A stretch of 64,000 nucleotides of DNA from Gossypium raimondii (lineage: Eukaryota > Streptophyta > Magnoliopsida > Malvales > Malvaceae). Positions 9,908 through 64,000 of this stretch are shown here, one piece after another. Numbering within the stretch: the first letter of the stretch is position 1; every line of letters begins with the position of its first letter. The stretch lies in assembly GCF_025698545.1 (NCBI RefSeq), contig NC_068569.1:5766001-5830000 (forward strand), written 5' to 3'. Under the pieces are notes generated by a model. That model was not told the DNA's origin, searched no databases, and saw only the letters and a program-made list of their open reading frames with translations. The position numbers and the translations under genes were made by a program.

Positions 9908-11252
9908 CTACATTAGAGGGCTATTGAGAAGTCCATGCCAAGATGAATTGAAGCCATTCCAGGTTCCTCTTCCAGAATCAAAGTCGGCAATGGAAAGCTC
10001 TTTCTTCATTGTTGTAACTGTACTTGCGTTACTCATTTCTTCATTATGATATGGTACCATAAGTTCCCCGTTAAACCCCATATCTTCAACCTCCCCCATG
10101 TTCTCATTTCCAAACCCATAGTAAAAATTCTGCAAGCTGTTCTGGTTTCCAAGGAAACTGCTTCTTAGTGCATCAACAATGGCAGGATTGGGTGGTGAAG
10201 TACTACTGGTACAACCGTTAAGGCTAGGGTTTCCAAAATCATCAAACCCTAAAGGGAAACCGGACTGTTTTTGGAGCCGAGCAAAGGCCAGGCTTAGGTC
10301 ATTGGTGTCGTAATTCAAAGGTGGGAGGTGACCAGCAATGAGTGGGTTAGTAGTGGATGTTAATAACGGTTGATCTTGGCTTCTCTTTGATGATGATGAC
10401 GATGACGACGACGATGATGATCTTTTGTTCTTCCTGCACCCACCGCCCACCGGAACATTTCTCAATGTGCCTCCTTTGGTCCAGTACCTCCTGCATGACT
10501 TGCAAAAATACCTTGGCTGAGAAAGGCTGTAGTTGTTGTAATAACAAAATTTGGTGTTGATGGAATCACATCTTGGGCACTTGAGTGCTTGTTCATGTTG
10601 AGGTCTTGGCTTTCTCGCTTGTTGTCCTTTTGAGTTAACCGACATGTTTTCCATTGAAGGGTTAGCCATCTCCTGATTTTTTTTTAAGAAAAAAAAATAT
10701 GACCAAATTGCAATAAATAAATATTTGTTCTTAATCAGGTTTATAATCTAATACTTGGTCATATCTTGATTGATAGGAACAAATTGATATGATTAATCAG
10801 TGGGGTCATGAAGGGATAGTTCAGAATTTAGAGCCTTTTAATCAATTTGTTTTTTTTCTCTCTTTAATATTCACTTGATTATAAGAACAGAAAAGAAAGA
10901 AAGAAATCAACATTAGTTCTAATTTAATTCAAATCAGAACAACTGTGACACAGAAAAACAAGTTCTATAAATTTGTAAAGAACATACATAAAAAAAACTA
11001 TAGCTTATGTTGATAACCAAAATTTATTTTCCTTTTCCCTTTTATAATTTTGATCTTTAGAAACAGAAGACGATCGACTCCTAATTATATTAGCATAACT
11101 GAAGTTAACACATCTTTTCGAATTTTCAGATAAAAAACAAACCTCCCAAAATTCACAAGGCTCTACCTACATCGCGAAATATATATAGAAACACTTGTTT
11201 CTTTATCATAAATATATGTATATACCTGGTGTTGTCTGGTAGAAGGATCCAT
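9908..11252 (-). CDS. DOF5.3-like: Dof zinc-finger transcription factor, DOF5.3/TMO6-like
   Basis: Two coding exons: 11226-11252 (nine codons, MDPSTRQHQ, then GTATAT donor) and 9908-10672 (acceptor TCAG, then GAGATGGCT). Together they encode 263 residues; the intron is 553 bp. The Dof finger has C41, C44, C66 and C69 (C-X2-C-X21-C-X2-C) with the sequence [20 protein letters not shown] followed by [15 protein letters not shown]. After it come a poly-Ser stretch, a [12 protein letters not shown] motif (about residue 134) and a C-terminal [20 protein letters not shown] motif. The last two match what I recall of Arabidopsis DOF5.3/TMO6, a phloem and vascular regulator. Dof proteins bind AAAG sites in DNA. 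A TATATA at about 11,430 on this strand is a plausible core promoter. Starting at the ATG at 10669 would give 253 residues and lose the first exon; I prefer the spliced form because the junction keeps frame. The exact family member is less certain than the family. Confidence 0.9.
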
Positions 11253-24833: not shown

Positions 24834-25520
24834 TCATTGCTTGGCCATTAGATCTTTGATCAACCCCAGTATCTCTTTCCTCATTTCACCCACCACCGAC
24901 GGAGTCACCTGCTCCTTTAGAGCAGAAAACCACAAATCAGTGCCATCTTTGTTTTCACTGCTTTCATACCATGAGCATATGGTTCTCGCAGTAGCTGTAA
25001 CGTGTAAGCCACAATCGTAGCCATTAACTTGCTGAGGTGTGTCGATGCATTCTTGATACTTGTCATTACTGGTTGAACTTGGACCACCATTATAACCAAC
25101 CACAGATTTAAACAGCTTCATAGCATGCCTCTTATTCATTTGCTGATTGCTATCGTGATGGACAAAGATATTAGCACTTCGGTAATATGCAAGTAAGCTC
25201 CAGTGACTTCCGCCTTCAGCTAAGCTTACATCATCGTTGTTATTGACCGGAAAAATCACGAGGTTCTTATCCGGCAATTTAAGGGGTTCCAGAAAATCTT
25301 TGAGACCATCAACATCGGGGCAGTTAGTTATCCAGAAAGCAATTGATGGTGGAACCAATAGGATGTCCTCTGAAGGATGACTTGAAGATAGGAGACTAAA
25401 ATAGAACTCGATGATTCTATCATTCAGATAATACGGACCACTGAGGATGTCCAAGTCTGATCGTCTAAGCACAACATCGTTGTAACTGAGAATCTTGTCA
25501 TCTGCAGCAGATTTTCCCAT
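24834..25520 (-). CDS. DEN1: NEDD8-specific protease DEN1 type (Ulp1/C48 cysteine protease)
   Basis: A single coding exon of 228 residues starting MGKSAADDKILSYNDVVLRR. The C48 protease catalytic residues are all present: His106 in EGGSHWSLL, Asp123 in VHHDS, the oxyanion Gln164 in DTPQQ and Cys170 in NGYDCGLH. Length and motifs match the short plant DEN1/SENP8 group rather than the larger SUMO proteases ELS1 or ESD4. Known role of the family: processing of NEDD8/RUB precursor and removal of NEDD8 from proteins other than cullins. The gene corresponds to what I recall as Arabidopsis AT5G60190. A 5' untranslated exon probably lies at 26,518 to about 26,640, spliced to just before the ATG. The open frame looks intact. 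Confidence 0.9.
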   Translation of the reverse strand: MGKSAADDKILSYNDVVLRRSDLDILSGPYYLNDRIIEFYFSLLSSSHPSEDILLVPPSIAFWITNCPDVDGLKDFLEPLKLPDKNLVIFPVNNNDDVSLAEGGSHWSLLAYYRSANIFVHHDSNQQMNKRHAMKLFKSVVGYNGGPSSTSNDKYQECIDTPQQVNGYDCGLHVTATARTICSWYESSENKDGTDLWFSALKEQVTPSVVGEMRKEILGLIKDLMAKQ

Positions 25521-25524
25521 GCTC

Positions 25525-27736: not shown

Positions 27737-28037
27737 GTACCTTTTTAATTTCAAATTTGTTTTTTTTTTCTTTTTGACTTTCTGGGTTCTGGTTAGATCC
27801 TGCGCACCTTCTATTAATTGTTAACCCTTCAAATTTCTTCAATTCATTGGATATTTTCTGATTAGTTTTATTTTAATACTTTTGGGTTTCAGTTTTTAGG
27901 GATTGTTAGATTTAGGCATCTTTGTTTAAGGGTAAGTTCAGATTCTGGGTTTGAAATATTTCTGGTTTAATTACTTTTTGAGGCCTTGAATTAGGGGATT
28001 TAGGTTTATAGTTATACCATTGAATTAATAGTTCCAG
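27737..28037 (+). other. Likely 5' UTR intron of the F-box/WD40 gene
   Basis: Donor AGAG|GTACCT after 27,736 and acceptor GTTCCAG|GTG at 28,037, 20 bp before the ATG, with a T-rich interior. No ATG in the short second leader exon. Inferred from splice signals. Confidence 0.5.
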
Positions 28038-28057
28038 GTGAAATTTTCATTCATTTT

Positions 28058-29701
28058 ATGGCATTTGAATGCCAAGAAAGCACTGAGATTTCTAAGAATC
28101 TAGCTAATTATTCTGAGTCAAACCATTCTAGTTACAATTCCGCACCTGAAAATTTGGAAACTTCAAAACCGTCTTTGGATTTTAACCCTAAGAAGGGCAT
28201 TTCAAGCTTTTATGGTTCAAAACAGTTACCTCCTAATGATGTTTTTACGAATGCCCGGCGGTCAATCACTGATCTCCCACCAGCCTTAGTTTCAGAAATT
28301 TTGAATTACCTCGACCCTAAAGAGCTTGGTATAATATCTTGTGTGTCGACCATTCTCCATAATATAGCATCCGAGCATCACGTTTGGAAAGAGTTTTATT
28401 GCGAGAGGTGGGGTTTACCAGTTGCCTCGGGACTTTTGGGTGCTGGGGCTTCCGATGAGAAATCATGGAAAAAATTGTTTGTGGAGAGGGATTTTAGGAG
28501 CAAGACATTTTTAGGAAGGTGTAGCATTGATGTTTTATATGGTCATACTGAAGCTGTTAGAACTGTGTTTCTGTTGGCTTCCGCCAAACTCATTTTTACT
28601 GCTGGATATGATTCGGTTGTACGAATGTGGGATATGGAGGAGGGGCTGTCAATTGCATCGTCGCGGCCCCTTGGTTGTACTATTAGGGCTGTTGCAGCTG
28701 ATACTAAACTATTAGTTGCTGGGGGTACCGATGGCTTTATCCATTGTTGGAAGGCAGTAGAGAGTCTTAAGCACTTGTTTGACCTTAAGGGTGTTGAGAA
28801 ACAGAACAAGGAGTTTCGACTGTGGGAACACGAGGGGCCTATAACTTCTCTTGCTTTGGACCTTACTAGGATATATAGTGGTTCTTGGGACATGACAGTT
28901 CGTGTTTGGGATAGGTCATCACTGAAGTGCACACAGGTATTGAGGCATGGTGACTGGGTTTGGAGCCTTGTTCCTCATGACACAACTGTTGTAAGCACAT
29001 CAGGTTCTGATGTGTTTCTTTGGCAGACAAATACTGGGACTCTGTTAAATGTTATTCACAATGCTCACGTTGGTAATACTTATGCCTTGGCTCGGAGTCG
29101 CACTGGAGACTTCCTTTTTACTGGTGGAGAAGATGGAGCGATACACATGTTTGAGATTATAAGTGGGTCTGACGAATCTAGTGTCGTGCAGGTTGCAACA
29201 TGGATTCCTCACTCAGGTGCTGTTTACTCACTTGCATTTGAGTTTCCCTGGCTTGTTTCAGCTTCCAGTGATGGTAAACTTGCACTAATTGATGTTCGGA
29301 AGTTGTTGAGGGCCAGTAAGCGCACCTTGGGGAAAAGGGTTTCAAGGGATAATGACATTGACCAAAGGAACATAGAGCCACCCCAGAGAATGCTCCATGG
29401 ATTTGGGTGCAATTTGTTCTCAGTCGGTATTGGTGCAGATCGAATTGTCTGTGGGGGTGAAGAAGGTGTTGTTCGTATCTGGAACTTCTCAGAAGCTCTA
29501 GAAATTGAGCAGAGGGCACGGGCACTAAGAGGAATACGTTTGGAGAATAGGATGAGGCGACGCAGACTTCAAATTGAGATGAATAATAAGGGTGGTCGAA
29601 CTGATCAATGTTCTGTTGCAGCCAAGAAGAAAACAGTCAATGGTGATAGGAATAGTGTCTGGCACAGTAAACGTAGCATAAGCTCCAAGGTGAAGACATA
29701 A
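28058..29701 (+). CDS. FBX2-like: F-box/WD40 repeat protein, FBX2 (At5g21040) type
   Basis: One uninterrupted coding exon of 547 residues. An F-box covers about residues 70-117 (ITDLPPALVSEILNYLDP, then HNIASEHHVWKEFYCERWG). From residue 160 there are about six to seven WD40 repeats, e.g. GHTEAVRTVFL...DSVVRMWDME, EHEGPITSLALDL...DMTVRVWDRS, HSGAVYSLAFEF and a final GGEEGVVRIWNF, followed by a basic tail with RMRRRRLQIEM. Known family role: substrate receptor of an SCF ubiquitin ligase; the Arabidopsis counterpart FBX2 has been linked to phosphate starvation responses. A 5' UTR intron is likely at 27,737-28,037 (GAG|GTACCT donor, TTCCAG acceptor). It converges with the FHA gene to the right. 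Assignment to FBX2 is by overall layout and recalled sequence. Confidence 0.9.
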   Translation: MAFECQESTEISKNLANYSESNHSSYNSAPENLETSKPSLDFNPKKGISSFYGSKQLPPNDVFTNARRSITDLPPALVSEILNYLDPKELGIISCVSTILHNIASEHHVWKEFYCERWGLPVASGLLGAGASDEKSWKKLFVERDFRSKTFLGRCSIDVLYGHTEAVRTVFLLASAKLIFTAGYDSVVRMWDMEEGLSIASSRPLGCTIRAVAADTKLLVAGGTDGFIHCWKAVESLKHLFDLKGVEKQNKEFRLWEHEGPITSLALDLTRIYSGSWDMTVRVWDRSSLKCTQVLRHGDWVWSLVPHDTTVVSTSGSDVFLWQTNTGTLLNVIHNAHVGNTYALARSRTGDFLFTGGEDGAIHMFEIISGSDESSVVQVATWIPHSGAVYSLAFEFPWLVSASSDGKLALIDVRKLLRASKRTLGKRVSRDNDIDQRNIEPPQRMLHGFGCNLFSVGIGADRIVCGGEEGVVRIWNFSEALEIEQRARALRGIRLENRMRRRRLQIEMNNKGGRTDQCSVAAKKKTVNGDRNSVWHSKRSISSKVKT

Positions 29702-40722: not shown

Positions 40723-40730
40723 TATAAATA
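40723..40730 (+). promoter_or_regulatory. TATA box of the first miR169 gene
   Basis: TATAAATA 87 nt upstream of the mature miRNA. The same box sits at almost the same distance in the two other miR169 genes in this window. Confidence 0.7.
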
Positions 40731-40796
40731 GAGACTTGAAATCAAAGAATAAGCATCCCATCGGAGATTGGAAGAGAGGTCTAATATGGGGAAGCA

Positions 40797-40902
40797 GAGC
40801 CTTGTTTCATAGCCAAGAATGACTTGCCTACCCATCTCTCATTATTGGCTGGGAAGCTCACAAGCAAGCAGGCAAGCCAGTCTTGGCTAACTTGACAGGC
40901 TC
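40797..40902 (+). ncRNA. MIR169: miR169 precursor, copy 1
   Basis: The 5' arm holds a miR169-like sequence at 40,810-40,830 (TAGCCAAGAATGACTTGCCT plus A). The 3' arm at 40,871-40,890 (GGCAAGCCAGTCTTGGCTAA) pairs with it, and the stem continues outward from GAGCC at 40,797 to GGCTC near 40,902. The loop is about 40 nt. Compared with the usual miR169 sequence, base 9 is A instead of G and the last base is A. miR169 guides cleavage of NF-YA transcription factor mRNAs, acting in drought, nutrient and flowering responses. The transcript is nuclear and processed by DCL1. Confidence 0.85.
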
Positions 40903-41389
40903 TTTTCTCTCATGCTAGATCTTCTCTTCTTCTTTAATACATCATCACCTACCCTTTTCTAAATCTTCTATTAACAAATGCTACTTTTGATGGTTGGAGA
41001 TTTATGATTTATTCTAAGAGTTTTTGTAGGATTATGTATACTCTCCGGAATTTATGAAATATAAATCCATATTTTTCTATTCATATTCCACCTTTATGCT
41101 TTTGTTTATATGTGAACAACTTCTTTTTAGAAAAATGGGCTTCTTTTCCTTTTACAAAACAGTGAAAAGGAATAGAAATGAGATGTTAAATTCGAAAATT
41201 GATTTTTTTAGTGGTAATAGTTATGCTGTGAGTCAATATAATTTGAATTCAATCCTCTAATAATCTACCCTTACACTTAATTATCAAAATAAATAAATTA
41301 ATTAATATTTTAAGTTTCAAAATGATTTTTTTAGAAATAATAATTTTATTACGACAAACGAGAAAAGTACGTAACCAAGTCCCAAGCCG

Positions 41390-41990
41390 ATGAATTTACT
41401 TCATACACCCTGTTCTGACATCCTCTACTCTCATCGTACAGATCAGACATAGCATCATGACATAAAATCGAAAAAAGACTAGAAGGAGATTTTTCCCATT
41501 CAAAGTGGGTTGCATCAGATAATGCGTACGAGCCACTTTATTAGTTTTTCGACCAGTATAATAGGATATTTTGAAATTAAGAAGCAAGCGCTTGACAGTC
41601 TGAAATTAACATACTCAAATCAGAAATATCATTACCATCACACTTTAAAACCGAAATCACTCGGAGAATGTTACTCTCAATCATAATTCCGTCCATACGA
41701 AGAGTCTTCAATCAAGAAAGAGCTTCTTGGACCGCAAAGGCTTCAACAACCTTCTGCCCAAACAAACACGATAATGACCTGAAAGACCCTTAATGAACAC
41801 CGCCGGAGCTCCTTACAATTGCCGCAAAGCTGGTCGGCCGATCTCTCACAAAATTTGCTGCATCGACTTTACATTTATACCAACACAGAAGGGGCTTGGC
41901 CTGCAAATGGGATACAACTAAGGATAAAACGACAGCCGTCGACACATCCATATTCTTCCAACGGTACCTGTTTCTATAAAACCGTATACT
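41390..41990 (-). mobile_element. LINE ribonuclease H domain fragment
   Basis: On the minus strand frames read WYKCKVDAANF, RPTSFAAIVRSSGGVH, then VVEAFAVQEALS, LKTLRMDGIMIESNILRVIS and DGNDISDLSMLISDCQALAS, ending with a degraded SGSYALSDA-type motif. This is the complete order of the plant L1-type RNase H domain (W-K-NVDAA ... EA-A-EAL ... ESD---V ... I-DC). It is split by stops and frame changes and lacks reverse transcriptase, so it is a dead fragment. Confidence 0.65.
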
Positions 41991-42049
41991 TCATGGCACT
42001 ATCCGGCGAGTGAAAAAGCGAAACAATCACATCTGAAACAGAAGAATTT

Positions 42050-43300
42050 GAGAAATCAAGCCTAGCTAATTGCCAAACTTCAAAAGCTTTAATGATTTTT
42101 TATTTATTGATAAAACACATTTAGAACTAAAACGATAGTTTAGTGTTGCTTTTGAAAAATACAGTAAAAATAATAAATATATTATTACGGTATTTCAATA
42201 AAAGCATGAAAAAGTAATTTATTATAACTTATTATTAAAATTTTGATATATGAAATATATATTTTGAATATTTTAAGTAATTAATATTAATTATTTGTAA
42301 AATTCAATTTAATATATAAATTATATTTTAAATATTAAAATATAACCATTACAAATTAAAATACATAATTTATATATTTGAAATAAATTTTAATAAAAAT
42401 AATTTTATATCCAATATAAATATTACATAAAATACATTAAATTATAAATAAAGGTTAAAATATCATTTTACTCCAAAATTAATTTTCTCAAACCCAAAAA
42501 CTTAAAAGAGAAAAGTACTTTTAGCTATTTTTGTTTAAGTTTAAAAGTACTTTTAATTTCAAAATTGTAGTGAATAAAGCCTTTGAGTTCATAGCTAAAA
42601 TAAGTTCTAGAGATAAAATAGAAAGCTTTTTCCAAAAGCATAATGATAAGAATTTTATTTAAATATCATATTTCAAGAAAAAATAATCTCCTCACGATAG
42701 ATTTGCTTTGGAAGAATAACAATTTTGTACCATTAATTATGTGGTGCAATCGGAGTTTTACTTTAATTATATAAATCAAAGAATAGATGGGATTCATGTC
42801 ATGTGTATACAAATAAAAAAGGCTACTTGGATGCGTAAATTTTTTCAGATTAATACGAGTTTTGATTTTTTTTTTAAATGAAGAGTTTTCTGGGAGCTGA
42901 TTGAAAAAAATTTTAACGACCCATGTAATTATTTGTCTTATGAATGTTATTTAAGAAAATTTTGAAATTAAAATGAATGTTAATATATTTCTTGGTGGAT
43001 GTTTATAATATGATTGTACAGCTAATCTCTAGTTGTTTTATTTTTTTAATGAATTGTAAGTAGATATGCAAAGAAATAAATTAAAATTTAGCAAATTTTA
43101 TTTTCTTCAATTTTTAAGGTAGTGAGTAACTAATTAAAATTTTTAATTACATTTTGGTATTTGAATTTAATCATTATGGTTTATTATGATAATTGGATTG
43201 TTATTTTCTAATTGCTAAAAAGGTAAAAAGAAAAAAAAGATAAATTGTTAAAAAAGTAGAAGGACTAGCTGTGCAAATTGATTTAAATTTTGGTCCGAAA
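42050..43300. other. Intergenic, AT-rich; one possible MITE
   Basis: At about 42,120-42,650 the ends contain inverted GCTTTTG/CAAAAGC-type strings (GTGTTGCTTTTGAAAAA on the left, TTTTTCCAAAAGCATAATG on the right), which may mark a small DNA element. No gene seen. Confidence 0.3.
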
Positions 43301-43309
43301 TGATGTATA

Positions 43310-44930
43310 AGCAATAGTAAGAAGTTTGGGGGGCTGCAACCGCAGTCAGTGAAAGAGCAATTAGCCGAAGTTTCCTCCTCCATGGCGTAAATAAATCAGT
43401 CTCATATCTAATTATTTTTCTACGCGTAAACTCTTAGTTTAGCAGTCAATTTATTTGTTATTTATCACTCATCAGTACTTCTAATTGGTTTCTGGTCTAT
43501 AATTACACAGTTCCTAATTTTCATGCATATTGGTGCTTCTTTTCGAACCCAAAATACTTGGGGGTTTACAGTTTCAATATTTTATGCAGCTGAAGCAATT
43601 GTATCGGTGGCATTTTTTATTCCAAGCATAATTGTTCCTCAAATGGGCGATGGAAATATTTATACGTATCGAAAAATATTTACATTATTATATATTATCA
43701 TAAAATATTAGTCTAAATTAAAAGTGGTTTAATTTAGTTAAAGTTTATTTTTTTAAAAATGAAGAATCCAATATTAAAAAAAAAACACATTAATAGCAGT
43801 AGATTTGTTGGAAAAGTTGAGATTTCACTGATAATCATGTAGTTATTTGCAGTAAACTGGTACATTCCTGCAGCTGCAAGATATGAAAGTGCTACACCCG
43901 TGCCACCTTCTGTTATTAGCCACGGTGCTAACTGACTCTGTGACAACTCGGGTTCAAAAACATCTCCTTCACGTCCTCATACGGATCGCGATTTATCCAT
44001 TGCCCCGCCTGCTCTCCTGTCAAATGTGTTACCCTTTTTGGGTACCTATGAGTCCCACGCGGCCTTGTTGTATTGTGGAAAAGTCTATCACATCCTTGGT
44101 TCGAGCCAAGGGAGGCTTACTTTCGGAACACAATAAAGGGACTGGCGTGTAGGATGGTGCGGGAGAAATATCCTGAAACCCAGGTCGTTAGATAATCAAA
44201 CTATACTTCCCCAGTTTTGTACATTTAATTCGATTTCCCTCATTTTTTCAGGGAATTGGGGTTTTGCTCATGGTGCTCTTGGTTCAGTTACAGGCACTAC
44301 TGCATCCGTGTAATAAAACTTGAAACTTAGCAATTAAACATCATTGAAGTTTAGTTCATAGCAGGGATAATATCTGGTAGACTTTGCTCTTCAACACTAA
44401 AAACTTAGGCCTGCTGGCATTGACAAGTCAAATATCAGCTGGATTTATGATTTTCTTCTCTATATTTGATAAGCCAGTAGCTCAGCATTAACACTGTGTT
44501 AGTGTTTGGTAGGAGAGAAAATGGAAGGAAAATTGTCCACCTTTGCATTTCTTCCCCCTCCAAATCCATTCCTCACAATGAAGGAAAAATAACTTCTTCC
44601 ACTTCATATCAAGAATACATTAATCTATATAAGATGAATGTGCATTCCATGTCAAAAGCAGGAGCTTTAACTACTTTTTTCATTTCGTACTTCTTCCACT
44701 GAAGCAGCACTACAATTTCTTTCCTTTAATGAGTACCGATCTGTGGCTATTTTACGTCATTTTCCAACACAATTTGGATAGCTTTCTCATTTCTGTAACT
44801 TGAATAGTATTTTTCTTTCTTCATGGGTTTATCAGTTCTGCAGTACTTCAGAGAATATTTTCATGGTGGTTGGAGATCAGCTCATCTTACCGGTTTGGTA
44901 AGATTCCTGGAAAAATCACTCAACTCGTAA
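43310..44930. other. Exon-like segments of an unrecognised, probably decayed gene
   Basis: Several short segments are less AT-rich and have protein-like frames: on the + strand WGFTVSIFYAAEAIVSVAFF (about 43,558-43,620), NWGFAHGALGSVTGTTASV after an acceptor at about 44,253, and QYFREYFHGGWRSAHLTG near 44,845; on the minus strand GTGVALSYLAAAGMYQFTAN near 43,850-43,910. The first and last of these are hydrophobic and could be membrane segments. I could not join them into one gene and do not recognise a family. Confidence 0.2.
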
Positions 44931-45860
44931 TTTACTTATATATATTACCTTCACTAAAATAGTTCTCCTGAAAAACTAAAATAGTTTACATGTTATGAAT
45001 TTCATTTCCTTTTCTTAAAGTTATCAGTTATGCTGTAATTATTTTTATGCTTTTCTAAGTTATATATTTTTCCTAATTTTCATTTTCATGCTGCACTAGT
45101 ATTCAAGTTTTGAGTTCCAAATAATTCAATCCCAAATTTGGCCTTACATTAGTCATTGAATTATTAGCTACTAACACCTTCAAATGAAAAAACTCTGCCA
45201 TATTAAAAATGGGCCTCAAACAACAGTTTTTTTTTTACTCATTTATAAGATTTGGTTTCAGTAAAATCTGTCGAAATTTAGGACAAATGAAAACAGGCAA
45301 CTCGAGTGAGTGTCGGATATAGCTATGCGTAATTTCCATCATTGGTATCGAACGAGGTTATATTAGAAAACAAACGAAGCATAAAACGAATATTAGACCA
45401 AAGAAAGAAAAAAGATGGCAACTGAACATTTGTAATCTGCAATTTTCTCTTTTACTTCCATTGTTGCCTCTGCATAATTTTCAACTTTACTTAAAAGGAA
45501 AGAAGAATATATTCCAATAGGGATTCAATTAAAAGGGTAGACCAAAAATGGAAAGGCAGAGATATTGGACTGGGATTTTCATTTTGTAAAGCTAATTGAT
45601 GATTGCTCAACTTGTCCACTATCAACCCCTATTTTCTGTCACCAATTAAAAGAAAAAAAAAGAGTCAATGATTTCATCAAAAGATGTGGCTTTTCATTTG
45701 ATATCATAGATGTTTGATCCTATTTTTATTAATAAAATTCATCAAAAGAACATTTTCCTTGTGCAAGAATTCTCCATTCAAGACTACCAGAATATATTCC
45801 ATTTATATGGACAGTGACATAGCCATTAACAATGTCAACTAGAGTTTGCTTTTAAAAATA

Positions 45861-45868
45861 TATAAATA
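45861..45868 (+). promoter_or_regulatory. TATA box of the second miR169 gene
   Basis: TATAAATA 88 nt upstream of the mature miRNA, followed by ACCAAGAATTGTGTTCACC, which is shared with the third copy. Confidence 0.7.
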
Positions 45869-45929
45869 CCAAGAATTGTGTTCACCATTGGTGTGCATAA
45901 AAACTGAGAAGGAGAGAGGTCTTACATGA

Positions 45930-46080
45930 TGAAAAGAGTCGTGTTTGGTAGCCAATGATGACTTGCCTGCATCTTTCAAAGAGGTTCAAAATCTCTGTAT
46001 CAACCATGGAAAAGAACCAGAAGCTCTTTGTGAGGGTGCCAGGCAGTCACCTTGGCTAATCTAACAGGTTCTTGTCCCTC
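45930..46080 (+). ncRNA. MIR169: miR169 precursor, copy 2
   Basis: The miRNA-like sequence lies at 45,949-45,969 (TAGCCAATGATGACTTGCCT plus G) and its partner arm at 46,042-46,060 (GGCAGTCACCTTGGCTAAT). The loop is about 70 nt, longer than in copy 1. Base 8 of the mature sequence is T where the family has G; the opposite arm still carries the C-containing CACCTTGG, so this position is unpaired or mispaired in the hairpin. NF-YA mRNAs are the expected targets, but the change may weaken targeting. It derives from the same duplication as copy 3. Confidence 0.75.
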
Positions 46081-46130
46081 ATGTTAGACTTTCTCTGCTT
46101 TGTCAATTATCTATCTGAATTTATTTATTT

Positions 46131-47790
46131 TTTTATAAAAAAAAGGGGTCATAGTCTGATATATGAACAAACTGGGAAGATTCTCAGGTACTCAAAACTT
46201 TGGTATAATATGAAATGACATGTATTTCTGAGTATTTGCATAATCCAAAATAATAGTAATACATTGAAGTGATTTTGATTGAAATGAAGTTTTTGTGTGT
46301 TCACTGATCAAAAAGTTATGATAATGAGGCCTTGGCATTGGATCATGATAAAAAGGTAACACTAGTATCATACTAATAAATTCTGCAAATTTACATCTTG
46401 TAGATGCCATCAAGTATTGGATGACTTTTTAAATATACAGTGAAATTCTGCTCATTATAAATATTATATACATATTTATTCTGGGGCATGGCTGCTTTGT
46501 TTGGATGGTTATCTTGACAGTGTACTATGCTAAGCAAAGACTTAATTCCCATTGCTTGCTAACAATATTTTAGTTTTCCCTGATGAGATTTGGAAAACCC
46601 AGGGATCATATATTGTTTTTGCTTTGGAAGCAAAGTTTTCAGCTATGTTGAATCCAAAAGCTGGTTGGAGGTTGAGACTCAAAGGGGAAAGCCTTCATGG
46701 CAGATGAATGCTGCTATGCTATGTTGAAATTTGGATGAATAAAATTCTCATTTTACTTTTTTTTTTTTTGAAACAAAGTTATTTAGTTTTCAATAAATCG
46801 TATCGGGGAGTCATGAAAATGTAAACCCAACCATTTATAGATTTATATTTTCTTAAACATTTATATAGTTATTATAATTTGTTATGTCAATGTATTATTA
46901 TACAGTTATATAAATTTTAACGTATTACTAATTCATGTAATATAAGTTTTGATACAGAAAAGATGAAAATTTCACTTCCAACAAACAATCAGTGATGTGT
47001 ATTCTTTTATTGTCCTTTCAGTTCTTTTAAATACTGTATTCTCTCTTATGTTAGCACCTACTTTCACACTGTAGTATATTTGTATACAGAAAATATGCAG
47101 TTAAATCATTTGTATGTAAAATTTCTTTCTCAAAGGAGTTAAGTGTCTCTTTCAAATAAAAAGAATACTGAAGAAAGAAAGAAAAAGTTAATTAATTTTA
47201 CCAATTCAAACCTAAAATAAGAACTAACTACAAAATTTAATTTTTATATGCGAACAAATATATTATCAAGTATAATATCATATCAATTTATTATTTTATA
47301 TAATTTTGTAAAAATCACATTATTTTAAGTAATGAATATAATAAATATCGTGTAAATCAAAATCAAAATTTTAAAATATAAAAATTCATAAATTAAATTC
47401 ACACTTTATATATAATACAGACTAATAATAAAATTAAATTAAAGAGAAATAGATGAAAAGTGTACCCAAAGAACTTGGGAGAGATTAACTTGCATATACA
47501 GATGATTTCTTTTGGAATCAGGAATTCTAGTAGTGACCTATTGTTACCCTTTACTTAGACCTAATTCTACTAAGGTCCTAAGAAAAATTCCAAGTGAACT
47601 AATTATGTTATTCAGAAATGCTTTTAAACATATAAATTTTTTAAAAGATTAAATATACTATCATATAAACTCGAGTAAAAATACATGAGCATTATTTTTC
47701 AAATAAAAAATCAAATATGCTCTAGATATACTAAAATAACCTTACTTAGTGCACGTTGTATTCAATTTTGTTTTTGGCACAATTCAATAT
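46131..47790. other. Intergenic, no gene seen
   Basis: AT-rich sequence after the second miR169 gene. Short ORFs without signature. A region at about 46,500-46,740 is slightly less AT-rich and may be transcript tail. Confidence 0.4.
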
Positions 47791-47794
47791 AGCA

Positions 47795-48660
47795 AGCCTT
47801 ACTGGGAATTAAATAGTTGCTGAATAGACTGAAGCAAATGTAGGAGCTGATATTATGACGAAATCTTTTTGCAGGCCTGCATTTTTCGAGGAGACCCCAA
47901 AATCGGCTATTCTTTTTTATTTTGCTGGACTAAACTTCCAATCTTACACATCTCTAGTTTGTACTATCTTCTCTTCTTTAATAATAATAATAATAATAAG
48001 CTTGATAAGATTGTCTCAACTCCCAATGGATTAAGTTATAAGCCTTTTCTTTTTCAAGGCTCCTGGAGAAGATAGAGAGACTTCTTATGATAGCCCAATT
48101 TGGTTTAATCAAGAGCGCTCTGATCCAAAGCACCAAAAGGGGTCATTTAATGAAAATTTAATGGTGTTTGTTTATGATTGTAATTTAATCGACGGAATAC
48201 TAAGTGATTTTCTTTTGCTCTTATTTTAACCCTTTGGTGTCCCTTCTTTTTACTCTTCAAGTAACTTCGTTTTTTTCTTTTGAGGTTTATGGCAGCAAAT
48301 GACCCGTCGTCTCTCCCCCGCTGAAGCTCAGGCCGTAATTACTGAAGCATCAGCTCGGATAATCGATCAAGGTTTCGATGCCGCGATGTTCACCGCCAAA
48401 ACCGTCATTGGTGCATTCCTTCCAATCAAAAGCTACTTGAGGCTGGCGAAGTAATTCACGAGGCACGAGGATCACCAAATCAGGGATGGTCTCTTGGACC
48501 ACGCCATCAGTAATAACATCATTGAGAAACCGGGCTCCGCGACTTTGATGATGTTGTAAAGTTCCTCGAATACCTGAGATCACCTGTGGGACAGCAAGTG
48601 CAGTACTTGGAGCAGCAGAAGGCTAAGCTGCGCAGAAAGCCAAGTAATTAATTCTCTTTC
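47795..48660 (+). pseudogene. Unrecognised small gene, copy A (tandem pair with copy B)
   Basis: From ATG at 48,299 the frame reads MTRRLSPAEAQAVITEASAR, IIDQGFDAAMFTAKTVIGAF, LPIKSYLRLAK and then stops (TAA, 48,452) where copy B has Lys-Phe-Thr. Beyond it the protein resemblance resumes: IRDGLLDHAISNNIIEK, then in another frame RDFDDVVKFLEYLRSPVGQQ and VQYLEQQKAKLRRKPSN before a stop at about 48,650. So copy A has an early stop and a shift, or is spliced in a way I cannot see. Upstream sequence from about 47,795 is also repeated before copy B. I know of no family with this motif. It sits between two miR169 genes. Confidence 0.5.
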
Positions 48661-48843
48661 ATGTTGGCAGCTGATCTTACACTTTGTATATTCGTATACA
48701 CATTTTTTTACAGGGAATAAAATAGTTGCATAATAGACTCAAGAAAATGAAATTAAACTACAGAGTTCGAAAGCAGTTAAAGCTTGTCAAGATAATCTTA
48801 ACTCCCAAAGGATTTACTCTAAAGCTATTTTTTTCACGTCTCT

Positions 48844-49327
48844 TTGTATTTTGTAGGTTGCCTCTCCCCCGATCAAGCTCAGGCGCAGATCACTGAAGCA
48901 TCAGCTCGGATCATCGAGCATGGTTTCGACGCTGCATTGTTCACTACTGACGCCGTTTATGGCGCAGGCTTACCCATCAGTCAATTCCTGAAGGTTGCAA
49001 AGAAATTCACGATGTTCGATCGCGGTTTCAGGGATGAATTGTTGACCGAAGCCATAAGAAGTAACATCATTGATAGTCAACTTTCTCTATTAGTTTGAAC
49101 AGCGATCGAAGTACTCTGTGCAGACGGCAAAACTGTGCCGCAAGGTCGGGGATGATGGAGTAGTACAGGAAGCCGCTGTAAAGATCTTTAAGCCACAAAT
49201 GGATGATTTTGCCACACCTCAGAAACGTGGGAGTATCCTGGAATTAGCAGGTGGGGTTGAGGTTCCACCAGCTGTTGATTCGCTCACTTGCCCACCTAAC
49301 AAGCGAGCTAGAGGCAACTCGAGCTGA
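48844..49327 (+). CDS. Unrecognised small gene, copy B (tandem pair with copy A)
   Basis: The frame after an acceptor-like GTAG near 48,857 reads LSPDQAQAQITEASARIIEH, GFDAALFTTDAVYGAGLPIS, QFLKVAKKFTMFDRGFRDEL and LTEAIRSNIID, then reaches a stop at 49,096. A second frame from 49,118 continues (QTAKLCRKVGDDGVVQEAAV, KIFKPQMDDFATPQKRGSIL) and ends PPNKRARGNSS at 49,327, a basic tail that could be a nuclear signal. The second part aligns with QQKAKLRRKPS of copy A, so both parts belong to the same ancestral protein. Whether they are joined by splicing or by an old shift is unclear. GC content is higher than in its surroundings, which fits real or recent coding use. No function can be assigned. 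Confidence 0.45.
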
Positions 49328-49753
49328 AGTCAAGTCTCAAGGATGGCCGATGGCGTCGAAAGGCGGCAGTTTTCTCTTTTTGCTTCCTTGGTTGCCTCTG
49401 CAGTATTTTAACTGTGCTTGAAATCTATGTTTTTATCCTACTATTTAATTTTCTTGAAATATTAGTGTTAAACAAGTATAAGATATGCTCTTCTAAGAAT
49501 TCTCTAAATACATAAAAAAAATTGGAACACAAATGTTGGCTACCTACAAGTCGACACGCCTAAAATGGAATGTGATTTGGTGAATCAAGTTGAAGATTTA
49601 TCAATCTGTGCACTATCAATTTCAACCTTTTTTTCTGTCAACCCTTCAAAAAGAAATCTCCATTGAGGATTGACCAGAATATATTCCATTGCATTGACAG
49701 CTACAAGATACAATAATGAGATGCTAATTAACAGTGTCAACCTTTTAGAAATC

Positions 49754-49761
49754 TATAAATA
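49754..49761 (+). promoter_or_regulatory. TATA box of the third miR169 gene
   Basis: TATAAATA 88 nt upstream of the mature miRNA, in the same context as the second copy. Confidence 0.7.
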
Positions 49762-49828
49762 CCAAGCATTGTCTTCACCATTGGTGTGCATAAAAACTGA
49801 GAAGGAGAGAGGTGTTACATGATGAAAA

Positions 49829-49965
49829 GAGTCGTGTTTGGTAGCCAAGGATGACTTGCCTGCATCTTTCAAAGAGGTTTAAAATCTCTGTATCAACTAT
49901 CAACCATGAATCTTTTTCATGGTGCCAGGCAGTCACCTTGGCTAACCTGACGGCTTCTTTTCCCT
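49829..49965 (+). ncRNA. MIR169: miR169 precursor, copy 3
   Basis: The mature sequence at 49,842-49,862 (TAGCCAAGGATGACTTGCCT plus G) has exactly the common miR169 form. The 3' arm at 49,928-49,947 (GGCAGTCACCTTGGCTAACC) pairs with it. The outer stem has GTCGTGTTTGG on the 5' side. The loop is about 65 nt. This is the copy most likely to give canonical miR169 and to direct cleavage of NF-YA mRNAs. Confidence 0.9.
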
Positions 49966-49999
49966 CATGTTAGACTTTCTCTTCTTTGTCAATCGTCTA

Positions 50000-51410
50000 T
50001 CTCAAATTATCATTTGTTTGGGTATAAATGAAATATGAGAAGAGACATCTAATCCATAACTTACATTTTCTTCAGCAATCCAAATTCTGAGAGGATAAAT
50101 AGTAAGTGAATGTCTTGTATGTGCTATTCTCTTTTTTAGGTAAATTATTCAGTGAAATTGGCATTTGAAAATGTTTCAAATTTACAATTTGAATCCGATA
50201 TACCGAATTTATGCATTTAATTACTTTATCCATAAAATTTATGGTAGTTGCTCACTCAACCGTTGGATATTAGAGAGTGAATCGCATGTTTAAATATGGC
50301 AGCTGGGGTTGAATTTGCCAAAGAATGTCTCTAAATTTACAGCTAGATATGAATCGCATGTTTAATTATTATTTACAAATTAATTTTCACATTTTTTAGT
50401 TAATAAATCATGAGTAGGGTCAGACCCAACCCATAAACTCCCATGCAATGTTACTGCCTACCTCTGTTTTGTTTGGATAAAGAGAAATACTTGTTAAAAG
50501 AAAATTATAATTAAAATAGGGTGATATTAAAATTATTAACATGACAAATCTAATCAAATGTTATTTTCCATTCGCCTTCATATACAATTTATTTGAATAA
50601 AAGAATCAGAGTATGCATACATAAATATATAAATTGGGGTCAAATTCTCTAATTTGGATGGGGAGAATTGATCCAACTTTGTAGGTATAATAAGAAAGAA
50701 TCAATCAAAGCACTGGTCTTCTTTTACCCAGCCTTTTGGTCCTTTTAAACCTTGTATTCTTCCTCTTTATCATTGAAACCTTCTTTTTACTTACTTCATC
50801 TAACACCTTTCCACATATTGAACAGGATCTGCACTTAAACTCAAATTTATGCAGTAAATGCATATGTAAAAAAAATTATTTTCTCAATAAATTTTCAAAT
50901 GAATTAAGCATTTTTTCCCAAAAGCAATATACGAAAACTATACACAAACAAACATATATAAAAAAAATTGATATCTTCATCGATATTATGATTTATTGGA
51001 TGGAAAGATTACTTACATGAAGCCATGGTGGACAGCCATCCTGCAAAAATTAAGGCAGTGAGAGCACCAAACATAAACCATGCTGCTTTGTCAGTTACAA
51101 CCCTTTTTGTTTTTGCTCTAATTCGATGGTATGGAGAACTATGGATAGAGTGCAGACCAAGAAACTTTTGTTAAACAAATCAAATCATCAGACTATATTA
51201 CAAGTTACAACAGAATACTAATTAGCTTTTGTATTTTTATACATGGAATTTCCTTGGGATACAAGAATTCTAAGGCTGACCTAATTTTGTTTTTTAATTG
51301 ACCGAATACCTTTGCTTGTTTTAAGGAAATATGCATAGATGGGAGTTGAAATCAAGTATTAATAAGCTACGCGTCACAATTATGCCTCGTGTATTAATAT
51401 AAATTTGTAT
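50000..51410. other. Intergenic; one exon-like membrane segment on the minus strand
   Basis: At about 51,017-51,110 (-) a frame reads VTDKAAWFMFGALTALIFAG, then WLSTMAS and meets a good donor (TCAT|GTAAGT). It looks like an exon with a membrane helix, but no partner exons were found and I do not recognise the protein. The remaining stretch is AT-rich without signature. Confidence 0.25.
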
Positions 51411-53299: not shown

Positions 53300-53316
53300 G
53301 CTGGAATAGCTCAGTT

Positions 53317-53349
<33 letters not shown>

Positions 53350-53373
53350 GAGGTTCAAGCCCTCCTTCTAGCG
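53300..53373 (+). tRNA. trnN-GUU: tRNA-Asn (GTT)
   Basis: A 74-nt cloverleaf: acceptor stem GCTGGAA with TTCTAGC; D-arm GCTCAGTTGGTTAGAGC; anticodon arm GTGGCTGTTAACCAC with anticodon GTT at 53,334-53,336; T-arm GGAGGTTCAAGCCCTCC. A run of T follows shortly after (GGTTTTTC), which serves as a Pol III terminator. It has no intron. It is a nuclear-type plant tRNA-Asn. Confidence 0.93.
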
Positions 53374-58518: not shown

Positions 58519-61500
58519 ATGATACCAGTCGACGAAGCTCTTCAGATTGTGCTCAGCGTTGCCCAGAAACTGCCACCTGTCACCGTCCCACTTCACCAAG
58601 CTCTTGGAAAAGTTTTGGCTCAAGATATCGTTGCTCCTGACCCCTTGCCTCCTTATCCAGCCTCAATCAAGGTTCGCTCCAAATCCCAGTTTTCTTTTTC
58701 TAAAAAATGAACCAGTTTTGAGATGTTGAGATGGGTACTTTTATCATGCTATAATTGGCTCTTTTTTTTTCCAATTATATAGATTGAATAGGCCCTTGGG
58801 TATTGGTTAGTTTTTGGTTTTTAACTTTGAAGTTCGAAAGGTCGCCTTTTTCAATCTCATTCTAACATGCGATTGGGATCTTTGATTTTTTTTTTATGTA
58901 GAAGTTGATCATATTCAATTTCTTTGTTTCATATATAAATGGCTTTTCAATTTGTTTTTTCATTTTGCTTCAGCATGAAAATTCCCTTTTCAGGGCATTA
59001 GGAATAGTGGATGAGGCTATATTTCTATTGTAAACTATCTTCCCCTGTGTTCAAGATTGATATATATCTCATAGTTGGGTAGATTTGTGGTGTGTATTAC
59101 TATTATCTGAATATACTGAGACTTCTTGCAGGATGGTTATGCTGTGATTGCTTCGGATGGTCCTGGTGAGTATCCTGTAATAGTTGAATCAAGAGCTGGA
59201 AATGATGGGCTCGGTGTCACAGTGACTCCTGGAACTGTTGCATATGTCACAACTGGAGGTTAGTCTGTTCTTTCTGTTATCATGTGGACAGTAACAGGTC
59301 CTGTTATCTTCTGCATTTTTGCTGACTTTTTCCATCTTTGAATAACTTAGCTGTATAATTGCTTTGCTTTGGACGTGTGTTTATCCAAAGTGGTGGAATT
59401 TGTGAATGTTCTGGAAGTATCTTTCTTTGAAATTGAAACCAATTACTGGTCTGCTAAAGGGTGCCAAAGTAGGCTAATGAAAAGAAGCTTGCCCGTGGGT
59501 TGCTTGTTGATAACTTATTTTTGTCCATTCATCTTTAATTATTATTCGTAAAAATAGATAATCTTTCTAAACATAACATTGCTTCTTGAGTGGCCAATTG
59601 AGTGTTGTTGCCTTTTGCTAAATGATCAAGATCTTTAAAACATGATCTCAAGTGTGATCATACTTTTCCAAAAATGAGATTGATAATAATTTAAGTTTAA
59701 ATAGGGCTTCTTCTTCTAATTTTAGGGCATAATATGGTGACATTTGAGCTTCTAATATGTTTAAATCTTAATCTTTAAGACTTAACTAGTTTCACCATAT
59801 TGTTTTGCACTTAACTTTTTCTCAAGATTTTGTCCATTTTGCACCTTTTTTTTTCCCGTCAGGACCAATACCCGATGGTGCTGATGCAGTTGTCCAAGTT
59901 GAGGACACTGAACAGGTTAAAGCTCCTTCTGAAACAAAGCATGTAAAGATATTGGTGCAAACTAGTAAAGGTGTTGATATTCGTCAAGTGGTATGGCATC
60001 ATTAACTCCTCTCACTTCACCTACTTCCGTCTTCTATTCACTGTCTCATCCTTCCTTTTCCTTTTTCTGCTACAAACCATCCTTGTCTCTATGATAATTT
60101 TTTTCTGCCTTGCTACTTCCTCAAAGCCTTTGTTAGTTGTCATAACAACTGAGTCAATGATTCAGAAGATTGAAGTAATATGTTCACGGTAAATAATTAG
60201 TTATTTACGCCCTTCTGGAAGCATTAATAGGTACATTGGAAATTTGGTTCTATTGCCAAACAGCTAAAGGTCTCAATTGGAAAAGTGTACGTTACTCGAG
60301 CACTCTGAATGTGTGCATACAGGTCTATGGCTTGTTGGAGAATAGGAATGAAGTTAAACTTCCATGGCTTCTCACCTTCTGTATAAGTTGACCTGACTTT
60401 GTTTATCTATGGTGAAAAAGAAAAATAGAGAAGAAGCAGGACACAATGAACTTACTGTGTTGTCCAATTGTGTGTAGCTTCTAATATTTTTCTTTTCGAA
60501 TGAGTGTACTTTATATGAAACAATTTCACATTTCCATGCTTTCTGTCATGTCAAAAGCTCAAACAAGCATCTGTTTGCAGGGATGTGACATTCAGAAAGA
60601 TGCAGTAGTTCTAAAATCTGGAGAAAGATTAGGTGCTTCAGAAGTGGGACTACTTGCTACAGTTGGTGTTACTATGGTGAAGGTACTACTTTGCCTACTG
60701 TTTTCATTTTAATGACTTTGCATAATCTGATGATATGGCTGATTTTCAGGTGCAGCCTACACCAACAATTGCTGTACTTTCTACTGGAGATGAACTTGTA
60801 GAGCCCACAATAGGATCCCTAAGTCGTGGCAAGGTATCGTTGGAGTATCTGAGTTAAATGTTCCAAAATGTAGATTGTTCAGCTTCCTAAAACAAAATTT
60901 GTGTAAGGTTAAATTCTCTAATTAGGCCTGAAGGTTCTTCCTGAAGCACCTCCCTTCCGAAAGGGGAAAGAAAAAAGAAAATTGAATCTGAAAGAAGGCT
61001 GGTATGGTTGACTTATTATATACAATTTATTCTTGGTGCAAAGGGTTGGAAAGTTTGAGGATCATGAAATATTGCAACCATGGTGATAGTGAGATCACAG
61101 GTAATTGCACATGGGATGCTAGCAAGGGAAGTTAGAAATAAGTTTTTGAAGCCTGATATGCTAGTTGTCACACCTAATCTGCAGCTATGTTATCGCTGGT
61201 CTTTCAATAAAAATGACATATATTTACAGAATCTAGGAGAATAATGAGCATTCTCTTTCTTTGTTGCTCTCTAATTTCTTCCTGTTCCACCTTTTCTTTT
61301 TGGATTTCCTCCAGCTCATATTTTGATGGATGAGCTCCTTTGTTTTGTGAATTTCCATCAAGACATCATTTAGGCTGGTTGATGGATTATGCAGATTAGG
61401 GATTCCAACCGTGCAATGTTATTGGCAGCTGCAGCACAGGAACAATGCACAGTGCATGACCTTGGTCTTGTTGGAGATGACAAAGAAGAACTTGAGAGGG

Positions 61501-64000
61501 TCTTGGATGGTGCTTTTTCTTCAGGGATTAATATTCTTCTGACTTCTGGGGGCGTTTCCATGGGAGATAAGGATTTTGTGAAGCCACTGCTTGAAAAGAA
61601 GGGGAAAGTGCACTTCAACAAGGTCGTTTTCCGTGTATATTTCTTCATGAGAAAATTACTTTTGTATAATCAGGCAAAAACTGTTCTATTCTTTGTTCCT
61701 AATTGCCTTGGAGCTTTAGATTTTTATATGGTATCCGGAACATCATTGATTAGACATCTATTGTAACTTTGTTTGGATTGATTTCCTTGACAGGTTTGCA
61801 TGAAACCAGGGAAACCATTGACATTTGCAGAGATATGTTTAAACCGGGCGGAGAATGCATCAGTGAACAAAGTTCTTGCATTTGGTTTACCAGGGAATCC
61901 AGTTAGCTGTCTAGTTTGTTTCCAACTCTTTGTGGTCCCAACCGTACGTCTCCTAGCTGGATGGGAAAATCCACATCTTTTGAGGTTGCTGAAACTTCCC
62001 ATAAATTGTTCTATTTCTGTTCCTGTTAGTCTATTTCTGACACTGTCCTGTTTTCCTTCTGTTTGTTATATAGAGTGCAAGCTCGACTTCAACAACCATT
62101 AAAGACAGATCCAGTTCGGCCAGAATTTTATCGTGCTACTATCAGATGGGAGGCTAATGATGGATCGGGGAGTGCCGGGTAAATTTAGAGCTATAGTTTC
62201 CTTGATCATAGGTCTCCTCACTTTTTCGATTTCTTGTTCAGTTAGATCCTTCTTGGACCTAATTTATCTGTAAGTGTCATGGTTTTTGCTATTCTATTCT
62301 ACCTTGTAATGCTATTATAATTGTGTTAAGAGGCAATTTGTTTCTTTCGGATTTTAGATTTGTCGCTGAGAGCACTGGCCACCAAATGAGTAGTCGGCTT
62401 CTGAGTATGAAGTCAGCTAATGCTTTACTCGAGTTGCCAGCTTCAGGGAGAGTTATTCCTGCTGGAAGTTCTGTCTCAGCCATTGTTATTTCTGATTTAA
62501 GTGGTACCCCATTGAGCAAGGCTGCATCGTCATATGATTCAAGTTCAAGTAGTACGCCACATAAAAGTGTGTCAAATGAAATAATGGGAGATGGATCTCA
62601 GGATGTGCAGTTCAAAGTAGCTGTTCTTACAGTGAGTGATACTGTTGCATCAGGTGCTGGGCCTGATCGAAGGTATGTGGTTGCTTATTGCTTCTTCAAA
62701 TATTGAATCATTTCCTAGGTTAAGGTTCTGGTTTTTCTATGAATTGTAATATCTCAAGAGAGTCTTATTATTTTCCAATTAAAAACCAGATTCCAAAGGC
62801 TAGAACCATTGACATAGAAAGCTTGAGCTACAATAATTTTCACTTACTTTTCTTTGGGATATTTGATTATGGATCTAGTTGGAATTTGTTGTTCACTTAA
62901 ATCCCATCTATTTCAAATCTAAATGTGCAAGGGCTATGACTGCTTGCATTTCAGATTTGCGAATATGATTCCATATTATATATTATGAGGGTCATGTGAC
63001 TTATGTCACTCCTAACTACGATTCATCCATTGATTTCTTCAACACCTAATCATTCTAACCCTGCAACCCAAATACTGAAAAGTGAGTTTACAAAGGTTTA
63101 TTGTTCAACCAAAAGCATCCCGATACACCACTTTGTTCCAGTTTGTCAAAATGGTCACTTTATGGATGCTAAAGTGATAAAGCAGAGTTGATGTTCCACT
63201 TTATTCTAGTTAGATATGAAATGGGTGAAAGCTCTGCTACAATATTGAGCCAAAATGTTTGTCTGGTGTCAGATCATTTATGTCACTGGCTAAGTTTATC
63301 TTTTCTTACAATGGCCTTTAAAAAGGACTGCATTCATTGAGCTCCCAGTTTCCATGCATCTAGATACACCTTTAAATAATTGTTTCATAAAGGTCACATA
63401 TTCGATGCTAAAGCAAACAAGCAAAGTTGATATTGTCCCATGACGAAGTGAGACATGGGAATACTGAATACTTTGCTACAACATATGGAAACAGCAATAG
63501 TACATTTTGCATGAAGACTTTTTGTTCCAGCTCTTAGTATTTTAGGTACCGTCTGTTTTTCTTTTTTATTTCTTTTTATCATTTCTTGGGTGCATTCACA
63601 AATTTGACTTTATGGTAACCATCTAAATGTTGGCACTTTTCACGCTTCCCATTAATGTTTTATCTATTAATCTCAGACCCGAAACCACCTTCAAGATGCA
63701 CCAATGGCAAGTTGTTTACATTTGGCAACATGACCTATGTATAATTAATTGATACTCAACAATTATGCGAGTTACTTAGTTGAAGTGAATAGGTAGTAGC
63801 TCCCACTGTTGACTTCCATCTTTTTATGCTCTATCATAAAGCCAGATTTCTAAACCATGCATATGTTTTCTGAAATGTTCTAGAAGGCTTTTCTTCCTTA
63901 ACCCATAACCTTTATTGTGATGGTAATCTTGCATAATTATGTCATGATTCTATCACTACAATCATGTCAGATTACTATCACAACAACCTTCATATTTGCT
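58519..64000 (+). CDS. CNX1: Molybdenum cofactor biosynthesis protein CNX1 (gephyrin-type), 5' part; runs off the right edge
   Basis: Nine coding exons are visible: 58519-58671, 59132-59258, 59863-59990, 60581-60682, 60750-60833, 61395-61622, 61794-61984, 62074-62178 and 62358-62672. All join in frame (477 residues so far). Exons 1-9 encode the MoeA-like E domain: start MIPVDEALQIVLSVAQKLPP, PDGADAVVQVEDT, IAVLSTGDELVEP, then LTSGGVSMGDKDF and FGLPGNPVSCLVCF. Exon 9 ends with the first strand of the MogA-like G domain (FKVAVLTVSDTVASGAGPDR, splitting an Arg codon). The rest of the G domain must lie beyond 64,000. CNX1 makes MPT-AMP (G domain) and inserts molybdate (E domain) in the cytosol, completing the cofactor for nitrate reductase and other Mo enzymes. 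The open frame is clean, so it looks functional. Confidence 0.92.
62673..64000. other. CNX1 intron 9 (to the window edge)
   Basis: Over 1.3 kb after the donor AG|GTATGT without a further CNX1 exon. No clear repeat was recognised. All other CNX1 introns in view are 67-604 bp, so this one is the longest. Confidence 0.6.

Follow-up and report, generated by a model that had tools for sequence, protein, structure and literature searches.

Three MIR169 hairpins in tandem in Gossypium raimondii, and the probable capture of one of them by a PIF/Harbinger-type transposon

Are three miR169 hairpins that stand on one strand within 9.2 kb of the Gossypium raimondii genome equal genes of a dosage cluster, or do they differ in history and in fit to their targets? 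A sequence-only reading of the locus had proposed a MIR169 cluster allowing dosage and sequence changes in the control of NF-YA genes, with protein-like genes between the copies. We analysed the 64-kb window that holds the locus (C5:5766001-5830000, on contig NC_068569.1) and searched the whole 750.78 Mb assembly of 281 contigs. A cellulose synthase stretch of this assembly (L081) is identical to PDB chain 7d5k_A at 179 of 179 residues, and its paralogue L080 at 176 of 179; 7d5k is cotton CesA7. The answer that we regard as very probable is that three MIR169 genes stand in tandem in a diploid cotton, probably of the D genome, and that the second of them (copy 2) was transduplicated into a PIF/Harbinger-type element and then spread with it.

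A search of the 64 kb with the miR169 20-mer, allowing up to 3 mismatches, gave 3 matches (0.01 expected), each within a hairpin and each preceded by the same 8-base box:

40723..40730, + strand: TATAAATA box of copy 1, an exact match 87 bases upstream of the mature 5' end; putative function
40798..40903, + strand: MIR169 copy 1 hairpin; mature 40810-40830 (A at position 9), star 40871-40891
45861..45868, + strand: TATAAATA box of copy 2, an exact match; putative TATA box
45937..46072, + strand: MIR169 copy 2 hairpin; mature 45949-45969 (U at position 8), star 46042-46061
49754..49761, + strand: TATAAATA box of copy 3, an exact match; putative TATA box
49830..49958, + strand: MIR169 copy 3 hairpin; mature 49842-49862, star 49928-49947

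The mature sequence sits in the 5' arm in all three and lies within a few bases of miR169: copy 3 has the canonical UAGCCAAGGAUGACUUGCCUG, in copy 2 position 8 is U instead of G, and copy 1 carries A instead of G at position 9 and A as its last base. The Rfam model MIR169_2 (RF00645, gathering cut-off 50 bits) matches all three on the + strand past the cut-off (56.6, 55.4 and 64.7 bits for copies 1, 2 and 3). Their folding energies are -48.1, -56.3 and -61.4 kcal/mol (z = -3.6, -5.3 and -7.8), and 0 of 200 shuffles folded as well as the hairpin in each case. Every mature sequence lies within one arm, with 2-3 of its own bases and 1-2 of the opposite bases unpaired, and 3/3 duplexes allow a star that leaves a 2-nt overhang. 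Mature match, RF00645, fold and duplex thus agree on three + strand MIR169 hairpins with mature 5' ends at 40810, 45949 and 49842, which confirms the sequence-only reading on this point, including the stable fold of every copy. The spacing from the TATAAATA box to the mature 5' end is 87-88 bases in all three copies, and the three further + strand occurrences of this 8-mer at 40-51 kb are none of them near the hairpins; the equal spacing argues for three separate + strand transcription units, each of which, with its own TATA box and hairpin, would yield miR169 by the Pol II and DCL1 route.

Copy 2 and its surroundings recur elsewhere. The query 45700-46300 (601 bases) found 26 matches across the genome, namely the window itself, six dispersed places (95-96% identity over the full query), copy 3 (83%, over part of the query) and 18 shorter matches. 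The shared segment extends well beyond the hairpin:

45346..46478, + strand: copy 2 unit with its flanks, the segment present in PIF/Harbinger-type elements; it reaches 46788 in L050 and L052

In the six places the whole shared piece measures 1.1-1.5 kb at 93-97% identity and comprises ~0.6 kb upstream of the hairpin, with the TATA box, and 0.4-0.7 kb downstream, so that the transposon copies carry the promoter region plus the hairpin of copy 2; TATAAATACCA is kept at the TATA box position in 5/6. Outside the segment, L048, L049, L051 and L053 form one collinear group (~6.6 kb) and L050 and L052 another (6.5 kb); between the groups the alignment is piecewise. All counts of elements refer to this one genome and are lower bounds, the best 40 of 198 candidates having been scored. 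At least seven further elements keep the capture scar with the hairpin deleted: six join 45346-45460 directly to 46244-46478 (L046 and L047 were aligned to the window, and four are placed by match coordinates), and an element on C13 (L058) is deleted further and keeps only 45346-45406. The edge at 45346 is common to all elements, as far as they were read, so that one capture followed by later deletions suffices. In two relatives, L056 and L057, element sequence borders the slot on either side, and nothing in them matches the window. The slot of L057 (1232-1968) is filled by ~736 bp of other sequence, possibly another capture, in which Rfam found no match at E 0.01.

The element at C5:40726885-40735097, read end to end, is 8213 bp long and flanked by TAA at either end; its inverted termini, CACTGTGTTTGGTTCGC and CAGCACGTTTGGTTCGC, share 13 of 17 bases. 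Among the left ends of 10 elements, a set that leaves out L056, TAA or TTA precedes the terminus in 8, the exceptions being CTA in L049 and CAA in L058. Both elements scanned for proteins, L048 and L052, contain DDE_Tnp_4 (PF13359; E = 9.2e-15 and 1.1e-14), in each case the second half of the domain only, the matching open reading frames lying in the 8213-bp element and in L052; two further open reading frames (ORFs) of L052 gave no Myb match when scanned, and one of them gave a sub-threshold Emr1 match. Target duplications of TAA or TTA are described for Tourist miniature inverted-repeat transposable elements (MITEs) of the PIF/Harbinger superfamily (PMC10004981; this and the other papers are cited from excerpts). 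Terminal inverted repeats, TAA flanks and DDE_Tnp_4 are together the marks of PIF/Harbinger elements. We therefore suggest that copy 2 and its flanks, TATA box included, would have been copied into a DNA transposon of this type while the donor stayed in place (transduplication), and that insert-bearing elements would then have spread to at least six places and hairpin-deleted derivatives to at least seven.

Several observations weigh against this account. In the assembled sequence, none of the six captured hairpins reaches the MIR169_2 cut-off, and 4 of 6 pass that of MIR169_5 on the antisense strand; the hairpin of L052 folds at -28.8, the other five at -42.1 to -46.1 and copy 2 at -56.3. The right end was read in one element only, and four of the six elements that share the hairpin deletion are known from match coordinates only. 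Expression, silencing and NF-YA cleavage are all deduced from sequence. The sites that inform on the direction of transfer are few and split 2 vs 2, as set out below.

The lesions of the captured hairpins were first read as real decay of transposon hairpins. By our reading of the alignment, most of the differences lie at CAG/CTG sites. Gaps and multi-column events in L048, L049, L051 and L053 fall at CAG/CTG in 73 of 156 cases, compared to 2.3% of 4000 control windows; CAG/CTG is the strongest of the 32 trinucleotide classes, and the next four all contain CG. Single substitutions are enriched less (9/77 vs. 3% for CWG, and 13/77 vs. 7% for CG). Real deamination would also be expected to enrich such substitutions; it makes no insertions or deletions, however, and as these cluster at CAG/CTG and CG we dropped decay in favour of nanopore errors at methylated cytosines. 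The lesions may thus be base-calling errors, the type of reads being presumed, and the pattern is then a hint that the elements are methylated; the captured copies would probably be methylated and silent. A report of modification-linked errors concerns bacteria, and modifications in general, and finds in its low-quality genomes mainly mismatches rather than insertions or deletions, with equal counts of 5-methylcytosine (PMC10687267), a pattern that, in the excerpt cited, speaks against a simple transfer to the cotton lesions.

An ordinary tandem cluster, in which three equal genes add dosage and the dispersed copies are unrelated background, has precedent, as tandem MIR169 arrays are known (soybean, PMC3481472) and the present genome holds three more tight pairs. 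These pairs stand at C2:31603551, C7:362733 and C11:58100202, with starts 227-250 bp apart, and those on C7 and C11 each combine a canonical and an A9 mature sequence, like copies 3 and 1. We nevertheless consider such a cluster a distinctly unlikely explanation. The copy-2 segment recurs with at least 0.4 kb of non-hairpin flank on each side in one transposon family, and as a full account an ordinary cluster is contradicted by the element alignments and the deletion derivatives. Moreover, the three copies differ at key positions of pairing with NF-YA.

Pfam matches to NF-YA (29 exons) were grouped into 17 genes, 15 of which carry a predicted miR169 site, always on the gene strand (score ≤5 for the best of the three copies); the two genes without a site in the fetched sequence lie at C5:8489701-8489980 and C10:329923-330187. 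The sites form two classes, 9 with CATTCTTGG and 6 with CATCCTTGG. At a score of ≤4, copy 3 fits 14 of the 15 sites, copy 1 fits 9, and copy 2 fits none. For the CATTCTTGG class, copy 1 scores better than copy 3 in 5 sites and equally in 4, whereas copy 3 is best in all six sites of the CATCCTTGG class. A C faces miRNA position 8 in 15/15 sites, and the U8 of copy 2 is mismatched there in every one; this copy ranks below copy 3 in 15/15, with scores of 5 or worse throughout. As the fits differ by site class and copy 2 is mismatched everywhere, equal activity of the three copies is not to be expected: copies 1 and 3 look specialised to the site classes, and copy 2 stands apart from them and is probably weak or redundant within the cluster. 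Of the cluster proposed to act on NF-YA through dosage and sequence changes, the hairpins, TATA boxes, NF-YA sites and sequence differences hold, and dosage is left without support. The U8 also creates AGCCAATGA in copy 2 (45949-45969), which resembles a CCAAT-box, the consensus bound by NF-Y itself; this resemblance is probably a coincidence.

The copies are also unequally related. Copies 2 and 3 belong to a local duplication:

45439..46133, + strand: copy-2 half of the duplication, aligning to copy 3
49366..50019, + strand: copy-3 half of the duplication, aligning to copy 2; support of 96/95 in the precursor tree

The main block (45765-46133 with 49651-50019) spans 377 columns at 82-83% identity, and two more collinear blocks of 59 and 90 columns lie upstream, with gaps between them. 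The 'about 700 bp' that copies 2 and 3 had been said to share are therefore right as a span and wrong as a continuous alignment. Copy 1 shares with the others two direct 57-bp matches, located at its two arms, besides an inverted echo of the arms and a weak inverted match of 73 columns to sequence past copy 2. From 24 mature-like matches, 3 without a star arm were dropped; the tree of the remaining 21 precursors, which does not include the six transposon copies, joins copies 2 and 3 as sisters (96/95) and, with a long-branch warning, leaves copy 1 unplaced on a long branch. The greater distance of copy 1 that had been noted from the sequence is borne out by these 57-bp matches and by its branch.

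Could copy 2 instead have come into the cluster from the transposon, by insertion or gene conversion? The homology of copies 2 and 3 near the hairpins falls inside the shared segment, as this direction would allow. With copy 3 as the outgroup, copies 2 and 3 agree against all six elements at 2 sites, one of which is a CTG and thus suspect, and the elements agree with copy 3 against copy 2 at 2 other sites, which favours entry from the transposon. Beside copy 2, however, no element sequence or terminus was seen in the window, and relatives without the insert (L056 and L057) exist, which makes transfer from host to transposon the simpler assumption. Copy 2 also has the same orientation as its sister, copy 3, and adjoins it, and the right edge of the segment, at 46478 or 46788 depending on the line of elements, is natural if a longer piece was captured and then trimmed. 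Entry of copy 2 from the transposon is, on this evidence, highly unlikely.

Capture from the host also appears to be recent. After filtering, 4 to 9 of 1104-1120 positions separate copy 2 from each of the six elements; the filter drops clustered differences as well as CG and CHG contexts, so that this divergence is an underestimate. So few differences suggest that the event is recent, with an age of perhaps less than a million years on an assumed substitution rate; should the differences be real, the unfiltered identity of 93-97% would imply an older date.

Across the genome, MIR169_2 gave 39 matches, of which 22 pass the cut-off and represent, by our own count, 20 distinct places; the transposon copies are not among these, but four of the six appear among the matches below the cut-off. 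By the same count, 14 of the 20 places appear on both strands, as is expected because near-perfect hairpins resemble themselves on the opposite strand. That the functional genes lie on the minus strand is almost certainly wrong and was rejected. MIR169_5 does pass its cut-off there in all three hairpins of the window (48.2, 67.9 and 78.7 bits; for copies 2 and 3 these exceed the bits of the + strand match to MIR169_2), and copy 1 folds better there (-53.5 vs. -48.1). The + strand, however, bears both the mature sequence (exact in copy 3) and the TATAAATA boxes at their equal spacing, E-values prefer the + strand model at 3/3, copies 2 and 3 fold better on that strand, and matches on both strands are common to those 14 places.

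The protein-like genes said to lie between the copies fared less well. Pfam at E 0.1 gave no match in the 7 ORFs scanned of the 69 between-copy ORFs of at least 45 aa, nor, at E 1, in three overlapping between-copy pieces, and protein genes of a Pfam family were rejected on this basis for those 7 of 69 ORFs and three pieces. The best protein candidate between the copies, which has in-frame stops and which a DNA search of the genome placed at a single site, is

48284..49327, + strand: broken ORF of unknown family, repeated twice in tandem (direct repeats D2/D4), located between MIR169 copies 2 and 3

Elsewhere in the window we found a Dof zinc finger (9911-10747), a Ulp1-type protease (24834-25523), an F-box/WD40 protein (28004-29698), a tRNA gene (53300-53373; Rfam, 71.7 bits) and a molybdopterin-binding (MoCF_biosynth) domain (61383-61763).

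Conserved MIR genes expand mostly via tandem and whole-genome duplication. Here a single genome contains the donor, the captured segment, the element, uncaptured relatives and deletion derivatives; since all stages are visible, the route from a conserved through a mobile to a decaying MIR gene can be dated and tested. Two further consequences are conceivable, although we think them unlikely: small interfering RNAs from the transposon might methylate the native copy 2 promoter in trans, in which case a transposon would have come to control one gene of a conserved MIR169 cluster, or hairpins that escape might act as a mobile U8 miR169, in which case, if intact and unsilenced, a variant with altered targets would be multiplying in cotton. 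The lesions also carry a warning, in that MIR copies within methylated transposons may look falsely mutated in such assemblies.

How does the locus compare with known systems? That MIR169 genes are clustered in other plants, as the sequence-only reading had stated, is correct, and such clusters also occur in Arabidopsis and sorghum. The soybean genes MIR169n, -d and -e form a tandem cluster on chromosome 9 (PMC3481472), which in the excerpt cited resembles the cotton locus in its tandem genes, in their divergence and in the birth and death of copies, and differs in that a cotton member was, in our account, also captured and spread by a DNA transposon. An excerpt of a paper on maize MIR clusters (PMC2773440) holds nothing on MIR169 clusters.

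Pack-TYPE transposons are class II elements that capture host DNA, and those of the Harbinger-PIF group have been surveyed in rice and maize (PMC8903248). As excerpted, they resemble the present element in class and in carrying captured host DNA; they are, however, called non-autonomous, whereas the two elements that we scanned keep part of a transposase domain, and their cargo is coding DNA, compared to a MIR gene with its promoter region here. An excerpt of a review from 2026 on how plant transposons capture genes (PMC13317346) has 'microRNA' only in the title of a reference and 'Harbinger' nowhere. Among the matches listed from the titles and abstract beginnings of open-licence literature, none concerned the capture of MIR169 by a cotton transposon.

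The closest parallel is GosTE. The original study of this element and of MIR482/2118D is reportedly that of Shen et al. 2020, which we know through a review. According to the portion of that review cited here (PMC10004981), GosTE belongs to the PIF/Harbinger superfamily and multiplied MIR482/2118D in cotton, G. raimondii included. The present case is likewise one of a PIF/Harbinger-superfamily element multiplying a conserved MIR gene in cotton. It differs in the MIR family and, the elements being compared by description only, in that GosTE is called a MITE, whereas the element found here measures 8.2 kb with a partial DDE_Tnp_4, and at least seven of the present elements have lost the hairpin. 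Rfam matches at the gathering score over 10 element loci number 4, all of them MIR169_5, although Rfam's cover of this MIR482 is unchecked. MIR capture by PIF/Harbinger elements in cotton has thus already been reported, and MIR169 is the second MIR family; together with MIR482/2118D, it suggests that PIF/Harbinger elements have moved cotton MIR genes more than once.

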